A DNA stretch of 64,000 nucleotides from Leptospirillum sp. (GTDB lineage: Bacteria; Nitrospirota; Leptospirillia; Leptospirillales; Leptospirillaceae): the NCBI GenBank assembly GCA_027315205.1, contig DAHUYM010000002.1:1-64000 (forward strand). The letters run 5' to 3'. The notes beneath the pieces were generated by a model, which was not told where the DNA came from, made no database searches, and saw only the letters and a program-made list of their open reading frames with translations. Shown in pieces: positions 10,860-14,909 of this stretch (position 1 is the stretch's first letter; each line of letters starts with the position of its first letter). The position numbers and the translations under genes were made by a program.

Positions 10860-11735
10860 CTAAACTTTTTTCCGCCTGCGTTCCGCGATAGTGAAGGTTG
10901 CGGCGCTCCGGACCACGGGGTGCTCGTCCTTGTGGAGGATTTCAAGGATCCCTTCCGGGAGGGCGTCGTTCCAGGCCAGGGATTCCCGGACCCAGGGGGA
11001 GGAATCCGCCAAAAGAGCGCGGGCGATCTCTTCGGGAATGGATACATTCTTGGCCAGGACCGACCGGATGACCTCTTTGGGATCGTGGGAAAGGATCTGG
11101 AACGCTTCTTCGGGAAGAAACGGATTCTGGGAGGCGACTTCCCGGACCAGGGGATCCGGATCCATCGAAAGTTTAAGAAGGGCTTCGGTAGGCGTCCCGG
11201 GATGTCCTGCCACGGTTTCCCGGATCCAGCGATCGAGGCTTCCGGACAGCTCCATAAGGGTTTCCGGGGAGGAAGACGGTCCGATGAGCCCCAGTTCGCG
11301 TTCTTCGTCGCCGGTCGGGGAGATCCGGGACGAAGTCATGTGAACGGTCTGGATCAGTTCGACTTCGTACCCTTCCGGCGCGTCGATGAAGAGGAAGCGG
11401 CTGTGACCGGTGTCGGTCGGTCCGTCGGTCACGGGGATGTTCATCTTCGAGAGCCGTTCCATCGTCTCGTCGAGATTGTCGACTTCGAACGCCAGGTGTA
11501 CCAGATCGGCCGGAACCGAGACTGAACCGGATGACGGAAATTCGGTGATTTCTATTTCTTCTTCCGACCCCGGGATCCGGAGGAACGTGATCTTCGAGCC
11601 CCGGGGAGATACAATGGAGCGGGCGACCTTGAGCCCAAGGACGTCCGTGTAGAACCGGACCGTTCGCTCGGAATTGTTGACGCGCATCCGGGTATGGAGG
11701 AGCTTTCGAACAAGCGGTTTTTCGGGAAGAGCCAT
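10860..11735 (-). CDS. Glyoxalase-I-like (VOC) protein fused to LRV repeats
   Basis: 291 residues in two parts. Residues 8-132 form a VOC domain of glyoxalase I type with all four metal ligands in place: H14 (LLHTRMRV), E62 (EIEITEF), H80 (LVHLAFEV) and E126 (GYEVELIQ); FYTDVLGLKV is the standard N-terminal motif. Residues 175-280 contain four repeats of about 24 residues of the leucine-rich-variant type: HPGTPTEALLKLSMDPDPLV, NPFLPEEAFQILSHDPKEVI, and two more with N-x-x-(I/L)-P and a WVRES or VVRSA ending. Methylglyoxal detoxification is likely for the first part; LRV repeats usually make a binding surface. The fusion is unusual. It lies 18 bases downstream of acs. Confidence 0.82.
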   Translation of the reverse strand: MALPEKPLVRKLLHTRMRVNNSERTVRFYTDVLGLKVARSIVSPRGSKITFLRIPGSEEEIEITEFPSSGSVSVPADLVHLAFEVDNLDETMERLSKMNIPVTDGPTDTGHSRFLFIDAPEGYEVELIQTVHMTSSRISPTGDEERELGLIGPSSSPETLMELSGSLDRWIRETVAGHPGTPTEALLKLSMDPDPLVREVASQNPFLPEEAFQILSHDPKEVIRSVLAKNVSIPEEIARALLADSSPWVRESLAWNDALPEGILEILHKDEHPVVRSAATFTIAERRRKKV

Positions 11736-11753: not shown

Positions 11754-13661
11754 TCAGTCTTCGAGCGTCGAGAGATCCCCTTCCGGAAGGCCGAGCTCCC
11801 GGGCTTTGAGGACCCTTCGCATTATTTTTCCGCTGCGGGTTTTTGGAAGCCAGTCGGTAATTTCGATTTCATCGGGTTGTGCGATGGCGCCGATCTCCTC
11901 GCGGACGTGGGCCTTGATGCGTTCCGGGAGGGTCTCGATCTCGACCTCCACGTTCTTCCTGAGGATCACGAACGCTTTGATGCTCTCCCCCTTTAGGGGG
12001 TGGGGCTTTCCGATCACCGCCGCTTCCGCGACGGCCGGGTGGGAGATCAGGGCGCTCTCGACCTCGGCCGTCCCCAGGCGATGTCCGGCCACTTTGATCA
12101 CGTCGTCCACGCGGCCGATAATGAAAAAGTATCCCTGGGCATCGCGCTTGGCCGAGTCTCCCGAAAAATAGACACCGGAAATTTCGGACCAGTACTTCCG
12201 ATACCGATCCGGATCCTTGTAGACGGTTCGGAACATGGCTGGCCACGGTTTACGGATGACGACGAATCCTTTTTCGCCGGGGGGTAGGGAGTTCCCTTCC
12301 CGGTCGACCACATCGGCCAGGACGCCTGGAAACGGCCGTGTCGCAGAGCCCGGGACGAGGGGCGTGCAGGGAAGAGGTGTGATCATGTGCATGCCTGTCT
12401 CGGTCTGCCACCAGGTGTCCATGACGGGGAGATTTCCTCCGGTGACTTCGCGAAACCACATCCAGGCTTCCGGATTGATCGGTTCCCCTACTGACCCCAG
12501 AAGACGCAGCGAAGACAGGTCGTACTGTTCGGGCCAGTGTTTTCCATGCCGCATCTGGAGCCGGATCGCCGTCGGGGTGGAGTACAGGATCGACACCCGG
12601 TACTTTTCGACCAGGTGCCACCACCGGCCCGGGTTGGGGTAGTCGGGGGAGCCTTCCACCAGGAGGACCGTGGCCCTGTTAAGGAGTGGGCCGTAAACGA
12701 TGTAACTGTGTCCTGTCACCCAACCGGGATCGGCCACGCAGAAGTAAACGTCGGAATCCCGGATATCGAAGACCCATCGGGTCGTCGCGTAGGTTCCGAC
12801 CATGTATCCCGTTTGGACATGCACGATTCCTTTCGGTTTTCCGGTCGTACCGGACGTATAGAGAATGAACAAAGGGTCGTCCGCTCCCACGGGAACGGGA
12901 GGAAACGGTCCCGACCGCGCGTGCTTCGCCATGACGTCGTCGAAGGCGATCTCTCCCTGCGAGGGTTCGAAAAGGGGATCTTTTCTCCGGACGACCAACG
13001 TGGTTTCGATGGACGGGATGCGATTCCGGGCCTTTCGGGCCGTTTCGAGGAGAGGGATCTCCTTTGCGCGGCGGAATGCGGCATCGGCGGTGATGAGGAG
13101 GCGGGGAGACGCGTCTTCCATCCGGTTTTCAAGCGCAGCCTGGGAGAATCCCGAAAAGACGACCGTGTGGACGAGACCCATCCGGGCGCAGGCCATCATG
13201 GATAGGACCTGCTCGGGAGAGGGTGGGAGAAAAATCGTGACCCGGTCTCCCTGCCGGAGTCCCAGTTCCGCGAGACCGTGGCAAAGGCGCTGGACTTCGT
13301 CCAGGAGCCGTGCATAAGTGTAAATGCGCTCTTCCCCGCTGTCCGAGACACAGAGCAGGGCGGCCTTGTTCCCGTAGCCGTCCCGGACGTGCCGGTCGAG
13401 CATGTTGTGCGTGATATTGGAGAGGCTTCCGGGAAACCATCGGCCTTCGAAGGTTTCGGGATTCCAGTCCAGGACGCGGTCGAAGGGCCGGAACCATTCA
13501 AGTTCCGATGCCACCTTTTTCCAGAAACCGTCGGGTTCCCTCAAGGATTCTTCGTAAAGGGTTCCGTAATCCTTGATGCGGGCTTCGGCGAGGGTCTCCG
13601 GTCCTGGGGAAAAGACCGCCCGGTCGGAGAGTCGGGTATCGGAAGGTTTTTCTTGCGCCAT
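11754..13661 (-). CDS. acsA: Acetyl-CoA synthetase
   Basis: 635-residue AMP-forming acyl-CoA synthetase making acetyl-CoA from acetate, ATP and CoA. Visible signatures are the P-loop-like YTSGTTGKPKGI, the adenylate-binding DTWWQTETGMHMI, the YFSGDSAKRD hinge region and the acylatable lysine K612 in KTRSGKIMRR. The WWQTE motif and the W-rich substrate pocket are typical of acetate-specific enzymes. Length is near the usual 640-650. In AcsA enzymes the final lysine is often acetylated as a control; a GNAT acetyltransferase is encoded 8 kb away but nothing links them. Translation starts at ATG 13661. The VOC-LRV gene follows closely. Confidence 0.95.
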   Translation of the reverse strand: MAQEKPSDTRLSDRAVFSPGPETLAEARIKDYGTLYEESLREPDGFWKKVASELEWFRPFDRVLDWNPETFEGRWFPGSLSNITHNMLDRHVRDGYGNKAALLCVSDSGEERIYTYARLLDEVQRLCHGLAELGLRQGDRVTIFLPPSPEQVLSMMACARMGLVHTVVFSGFSQAALENRMEDASPRLLITADAAFRRAKEIPLLETARKARNRIPSIETTLVVRRKDPLFEPSQGEIAFDDVMAKHARSGPFPPVPVGADDPLFILYTSGTTGKPKGIVHVQTGYMVGTYATTRWVFDIRDSDVYFCVADPGWVTGHSYIVYGPLLNRATVLLVEGSPDYPNPGRWWHLVEKYRVSILYSTPTAIRLQMRHGKHWPEQYDLSSLRLLGSVGEPINPEAWMWFREVTGGNLPVMDTWWQTETGMHMITPLPCTPLVPGSATRPFPGVLADVVDREGNSLPPGEKGFVVIRKPWPAMFRTVYKDPDRYRKYWSEISGVYFSGDSAKRDAQGYFFIIGRVDDVIKVAGHRLGTAEVESALISHPAVAEAAVIGKPHPLKGESIKAFVILRKNVEVEIETLPERIKAHVREEIGAIAQPDEIEITDWLPKTRSGKIMRRVLKARELGLPEGDLSTLED

Positions 13662-13907: not shown

Positions 13908-14909
13908 ATGGAATTCGTGGATATCGCGGGTCTTAGGAGGTCCGCATCGAGAATTGGTTTGGGGACGTGGTCGATCGGGGGATGGATGTGGGGAGGGACC
14001 GACGAATCGACGGCGGTCCGGACAATCCTGAAAGCCTTCGAGATGGGAATCAATGTGGTCGACACCGCTCCTGTGTACGGGTTCGGCGTGTCGGAGGAAA
14101 TCGTCGGAAAAGCTCTGGCCGCCCATGGAAAAAGAGACGAGATCCTCATCCTGACCAAGGCGGGTCTCGAATGGGACGGTAACGGGATTCGCAGGAATTC
14201 CTCACGGGCCCGGCTCGAGAAGGAAATCGTCGATTCGTTGAAGCGTCTGGGGACCGAATATATCGATCTGTACCAGATCCATTGGCCGGATACGGCGATT
14301 CCGTTCGAGGAAACGGCCGAAACGCTCGAACGATTGAAGCAGAAAGGCCTCATCCGGGCTATCGGGGTCAGCAATTTCAGCCCGGCCCAGATGGACCGGT
14401 TCAGGACCGGGGCACCTCTTTCGATCGACCAGCCCCCTTTCAACCTCTTCGAACGGGGCATCGAGAAAGAGGTCCTGCCCTATTGCCGGACAAACAACAT
14501 CCGGACGGTCGTTTACGGCGTCCTTTGCCGGGGGCTTTTGTCCGGGACGGTGACGGCCGATCGTTCCTATTCGGGCGACGACCTTCGAAAGATCGACCCA
14601 AAGTTTTCCGGGGAACGCCTCCCGCATTACCTGGAAGCGGTCCGCCGGATCGATGCTCATGCACGGGAACGTCACGGCAAGGATGTTCTGGCCTTTTCGG
14701 TCCGGTGGGCCCTTGACCGGCCCGGTGTCGACGTTGTCCTGTGGGGAGCGAGGACACCGGAGCAGCTGTCGCCCATCCCGCGGATCCTGGGATGGAAAAC
14801 ACGTTCGGAAGACGCGTCCCCGATCGACCGGATTCTGGAGGAATCCATTCCCGATCCGGTGGGCCCCGAATTCATGGCCCCTCCCGAAAGCATGGCGAAA
14901 ACGAACTGA
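13908..14909 (+). CDS. Aldo/keto reductase
   Basis: 333-residue NAD(P)H-dependent oxidoreductase of the aldo/keto reductase superfamily. The catalytic tetrad is intact: D52 and Y57 in VDTAPVYGFG, K84 in ILTKAG, and H125 in YQIHWPD. Cofactor-binding segments AIGVSNFSPAQMDRF and a C-terminal VLWGARTPEQL are also present. It reduces aldehydes or ketones; the natural substrate cannot be told. It is the first gene of a rightward cluster, but a separate promoter-like element lies between it and thiG, so it may not belong to the thiamine operon. Confidence 0.93.
   Translation: MEFVDIAGLRRSASRIGLGTWSIGGWMWGGTDESTAVRTILKAFEMGINVVDTAPVYGFGVSEEIVGKALAAHGKRDEILILTKAGLEWDGNGIRRNSSRARLEKEIVDSLKRLGTEYIDLYQIHWPDTAIPFEETAETLERLKQKGLIRAIGVSNFSPAQMDRFRTGAPLSIDQPPFNLFERGIEKEVLPYCRTNNIRTVVYGVLCRGLLSGTVTADRSYSGDDLRKIDPKFSGERLPHYLEAVRRIDAHARERHGKDVLAFSVRWALDRPGVDVVLWGARTPEQLSPIPRILGWKTRSEDASPIDRILEESIPDPVGPEFMAPPESMAKTN

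Follow-up and report, generated by a model that had tools for sequence, protein, structure and literature searches.

The window, the whole stretch of 64,000 nucleotides analysed here, carries a gene for a two-domain protein directly downstream of an acetate--CoA ligase gene. The features are as follows.

10860 to 11735, minus strand: VOC-LRV fusion gene, 291 residues (open reading frame with Pfam PF00903 and PF01816 matches; full-length orthologues in three more genomes)
11343 to 11714, minus strand: VOC (glyoxalase I-like) domain, residues 8-131, with ligands H14, E62, H80 and E126
11280 to 11342, minus strand: variable linker, residues 132-152, with pLDDT below 50 at residues 132-145
10890 to 11279, minus strand: five LRV repeats of 26 residues each (153-178, 179-204, 205-230, 231-256 and 257-282)
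11754 to 13661, minus strand: acs, acetate--CoA ligase, directly upstream across an 18-bp gap (TIGR02188, 789.4 bits against a cut-off of 724.95)

A further frame at 13908 to 14909 (plus strand) is divergent from acs. Its sequence has the look of an aldo/keto reductase, so that the neighbour might handle carbonyls; the relatives' loci compared showed no match to this frame.

The fusion frame opens with ATG and matched both Pfam Glyoxalase (PF00903, residues 11-127, E = 3.3e-19, 69.9 bits against a cut-off of 20.6) and Pfam LRV (PF01816, 47.8 bits against 21.6). This bears out the preliminary description of the locus, which had proposed a glyoxalase-I-type domain fused to LRV repeats in a single product. 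Two separate genes with an internal start were ruled out, as a single open frame spans both domains in each of the four genomes that carry the fusion, and no ATG, GTG or TTG between residues 90 and 175 is common to the four. A GTG at residue 175 is present in three of them, but it lies inside repeat 1. On the evidence of the sequences, VOC-LRV is a real, conserved domain fusion that unites two known domains in a new combination. No description of a glyoxalase-LRV fusion was found in the literature searched, partly by titles and the openings of abstracts; a fungal genome study, in the accessible part of its text, names leucine-rich repeat variant and glyoxalase separately.

Analysis of the C-terminal half showed tandem LRV repeats, as had been described, though not the four units of about 24 residues first counted: there are five, each of exactly 26 residues, at positions 153-282. 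Self-identity across residues 150-285 reached 37 of 110 positions at an offset of 26; the remaining eleven offsets from 20 to 31 gave 3-12. [VI]R pairs occur at residues 171, 197, 223, 249 and 275, and five pairs at this spacing indicate five repeats, one above the earlier count. The pattern D-x2-4-[VI]-R-x2-[VLA] occurred six times (overlapping starts counted), against a mean of 0.04 in shuffled sequences, and none of 10000 shuffles reached six.

The full-length AlphaFold model (six sequences; mean pLDDT 83.6, pTM 0.49) displayed the strand/helix alternation of a VOC domain, followed by a solenoid of paired short helices. The C-terminal part is thus predicted to be a helical solenoid and the gene is single, so that neither of the outcomes named beforehand as fatal to the proposal, a C-terminal part of another fold or two genes divided by an internal start, was encountered. 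At a pTM of 0.49, the model does not fix how the two domains sit relative to each other. When the LRV half was modelled alone, the best model had a pLDDT of 90.6 and a pTM of 0.80, and the other four had pLDDT values from 79.4 to 53.3. In Foldseek searches with the LRV model, alphaRep and HEAT-like proteins ranked first among the 50 matches listed, with E below 0.001 for one match only. The LRV protein 1lrv, which we take to be from Azotobacter vinelandii, ranked 12th (TMq 0.65, rmsd 2.8) and had the highest identity of those 50, at 28%. VIA-align gave Z scores up to 13.9, to HEAT-like repeats, though such values are common among helical repeats. Most of the 50 matches it listed were HEAT, alphaRep or armadillo solenoids; 1lrv was absent from them.

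LRV repeats were associated, in the preliminary description, with an Fe-S protein linked to nitrogen fixation. That link is not supported for this protein: it contains no Cys (orthologue L003 has one, in its LRV half), the Cys-rich Fe-S domain of nif-linked LRV proteins (LRV_FeS, PF05484) was not found in the window genome, and the neighbouring gene is acs. Residues 153-291 contain 16 Lys/Arg and 22 Asp/Glu, with a pI of 5.2, and residues 153-283 have a pI of 4.7. Being free of Cys and mildly acidic, the LRV half would seem to be neither an Fe-S LRV of the nif type nor an obvious nucleic-acid binder. Helical solenoids can bind nucleic acid, and it had been suggested that the repeats bind either nucleic acid or a partner protein. 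The second part of this suggestion stays plausible; the acidity of the repeats disfavours the first, and although charge alone is a weak argument, we give nucleic-acid binding next to no credence. To our knowledge, LRV repeats have no clear function, and no study treating it by title was found among the literature matches listed.

Separate LRV proteins occur in relatives. LRV_FeS was present in three of seven genomes (G001, G003 and G006), and Cys-bearing LRV proteins of 260 residues are encoded by separate genes in G013 and G016. At locus L065 (G001:C204, 1539-2375), in a genome that also carries the VOC-LRV fusion, an LRV_FeS protein precedes a short frame and, beyond it, a further frame whose opening motif resembles that of a NifS-type cysteine desulfurase. 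The LRV_FeS protein at L065 is a nif-type LRV. Locus L068 (G042:C178, 578-2011) encodes a 477-residue protein without a VOC domain, whose LRV stretch is about 31% identical to the fused LRV. Locus L067 (G030:C6, 67113-67472), from another family of the phylum, has an open frame of 1079 codons with LRV matches.

The four metal ligands of the VOC domain (H14, E62, H80 and E126) lie where they had been placed in the preliminary description. Together with R18 they are identical in all 24 aligned relatives, in an alignment that leaves out two weak relatives (L029 and L030, about 30% identity). The nearest solved protein by sequence was E. coli GlxI (1f9z, 5e-13), and structure comparison matched the VOC half to E. 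coli GlxI and GloA2. This closeness and the identical ligand set favour a classical glutathione-dependent glyoxalase I, with the LRV tail localising methylglyoxal detoxification, as first proposed. Against this, the equivalog cut-offs for glyoxalase I lay far above the scores obtained (TIGR00068, 52.8 against 120 bits; NF050074, 55.2 against 165), and in all 24 rows Phe (19) or Tyr (5) stands opposite E. coli Asn60, which we take to be a glutathione contact residue. The fusion is one of seven PF00903 matches in the window genome, and so is not its sole VOC protein.

The thiol supply of the family points in the same direction. Glutathione synthetase (PF02955) was found in none of seven family genomes (64-99.93% complete) by a search that does find it in E. 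coli; this test of glutathione synthesis covered that one enzyme of the pathway. GloB above its curated cut-off was likewise found in none of the seven, though all have weaker matches to the same model, and BshC of bacillithiol synthesis was also found in none. According to the accessible part of a published study (PMC3435265), glutathione genes were not found in the Leptospirillum genomes it covered and L. ferriphilum showed no glutathione reductase activity; the study found no glutathione system in Leptospirillum. Its authors also cite, and dispute, earlier work reporting that L. ferriphilum regenerates glutathione, which would favour a glutathione-dependent enzyme. The genome counts and that study make a glutathione role unlikely, and the methylglyoxal role first proposed for the enzyme is not supported; a classical glyoxalase I with a localising tail is, in our estimate, highly improbable. 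The fusion thus raises the question of which thiol serves glyoxalase-type chemistry in acidophiles that seemingly lack glutathione.

To place the fusion among its relatives, the VOC gene was followed through 21 genomes of the Leptospirillum family. It was found in 16; the five without a match were 71-86% complete. Full-length fusions, 74-77% identical to the window protein, occur in three genomes besides the window genome (G000), making four in all: L002 (Leptospirillum sp., G001), L003 (Nitrospirae bacterium, G005) and L004 (Nitrospirae bacterium, G004). Every genome of genera g1, g2 and g5 that was examined is among these four, and the remaining 12 VOC genes (11 of g3, one of g4) have no tail. 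Among the 21 family genomes searched, the tail is, by sequence comparison, confined to one branch of this iron-oxidising family. The contig search for the full-length fusion reached close relatives only, and fusions may occur in other phyla.

Wider searches returned no further fusion. Among 46 LRV-bearing loci, several of them overlapping, gathered by PF01816, LRV_FeS and LRV-half searches and scanned for open reading frames of at least 60 residues, a VOC domain was found in the four fusion genes only (E up to 10). With the whole protein as a tblastn query, 80% query coverage was reached in none of 146 matching plasmid records and none of seven phage records. Two plasmid matches appeared to span both halves of the protein, but neither is a fusion: in Nostoc sp. 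C052 only 42 bases lie between the start of the gene and the match to residue 99, which leaves no room for a VOC domain, and in Roseibium VOC and a methyltransferase are encoded by two genes.

The absence of repeats from 12 of the 16 family VOC genes and from all eight close relatives outside the family suggests that the tail was probably joined to a pre-existing stand-alone enzyme. In the VOC tree, g4, which has no LRV, falls outside the rest, which fits a single gain. In the unrooted acs tree, g4 groups with the window genome (94/90), an arrangement that would require g4 to have lost the tail or the tail to have been gained twice. A search for LRV remnants beside the stand-alone VOC genes of sister genomes, in 12 loci of which some had flanks of only 1.5 kb or less, gave none that was credible (best E 0.25; positive control 1.5e-76). 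No donor of the LRV part was found among 295 genomes of the phylum: apart from the fusions, the best matches, in eight genomes, reached 28-35% identity, so the separate LRV proteins are not evident donors.

The acs gene lies directly upstream of the VOC gene on the same strand in all 16 family genomes that have the latter, with -1 to 27 bases between the two. The two genes are likely to form one operon and to be co-transcribed. Outside the family, acs was found beside none of eight stand-alone VOC genes, in flanks of 8 kb on each side for two loci and 1.5 kb for the rest, one of these with 0.37 kb on one side. Since these close relatives show no acs nearby, what the VOC domain catalyses need not have anything to do with acs. 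The simplest account of the sequences would be that a stand-alone VOC enzyme became linked to acs in the Leptospirillum family and that LRV was gained afterwards. In the sister genera the acs-VOC pair occurs without LRV, which indicates that the tail is not needed for whatever function the pair shares.

Conservation within the four fusions was greatest in the tail. Invariant positions numbered 105 of 130 in LRV (24 of 26 in the last repeat), 80 of 124 in VOC and seven of 21 in the linker. The pN/pS ratio was lower in LRV than in VOC in all six genome pairs, at 0.148 and 0.217, respectively, for the window genome and L002, and the linker gave 0.30-0.63; these values are rough, since pairs drawn from four genomes are not independent of one another and synonymous change is close to saturation, with dS reaching 3.1 in LRV and VOC. 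Amino-acid identity followed the same order in each pair. The greater invariance and lower pN/pS of LRV suggest that the tail has a function. Its main role might be to tune how the enzyme itself folds, oligomerises or keeps its stability, without any partner from outside: stand-alone orthologues occur in the same gene pair, and the model sets no fixed domain arrangement, so that contact within a homo-oligomer is possible. The invariance of the repeats, however, seems in our judgement beyond the need of a stability tail, and we regard an internal role of this kind as somewhat doubtful.

We favour, with moderate confidence, a VOC lyase or isomerase that uses a thiol other than glutathione, or a substrate linked to CoA, and whose repeats serve to dock it onto a protein; both the substrate and the partner are inferred. 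In favour of this reading are the glyoxalase I-like sequence, fold and ligands, the tight acs-VOC pairing throughout the family, and the failure to find glutathione synthetase or BshC. The VOC domain would dimerise in the manner of glyoxalase I, and its four ligands would hold a divalent metal that serves a proton-transfer (isomerase or lyase) reaction. The substrate may be a small reactive carbonyl carried on a thiol other than glutathione, or a CoA-linked compound connected with acs. The LRV solenoid, on its flexible linker, would then dock the enzyme onto a partner protein. Docking is favoured because the predicted fold resembles, in addition to 1lrv, HEAT-like solenoids, many of which bind proteins; the arm would most likely bind a protein, the first candidates being the acs product and other enzymes of acetyl-CoA metabolism. 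A narrower proposal, in which a glutathione-independent VOC enzyme acts on CoA-bound or CoA-thiohemiacetal substrates while docked through LRV onto acetyl-CoA synthetase, in an assembly specific to a few Leptospirillum-family genera, is unlikely and is offered as speculation.

Compared with glyoxalase I (GloA; E. coli 1f9z, PF00903), the fold and the four metal ligands are alike, and Arg18 aligns with the N-terminal Arg. Unlike GloA, the window protein scores below the curated glyoxalase I cut-offs, has Phe/Tyr at the position of E. coli Asn60, carries an LRV tail, and belongs to a lineage in which glutathione synthetase was not found. The LRV protein 1lrv (PF01816, with LRV_FeS, PF05484) resembles the tail in sequence (1.7e-4) and fold; the window protein differs from it in having five repeats, no Cys, no Fe-S domain and an acs neighbour, and in being fused to an enzyme. 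The LRV_FeS proteins of related genomes are separate genes, unlike the enzyme-fused LRV. The stand-alone VOC proteins of sister genera (L011-L022) have an orthologous VOC domain and the same acs neighbour, but are 130-142 residues long and have no LRV. With LRV attached to a catalytic domain in one group, absent from orthologues in the other, and the same neighbouring gene in both, the effect of the repeats can be tested by simple comparison.
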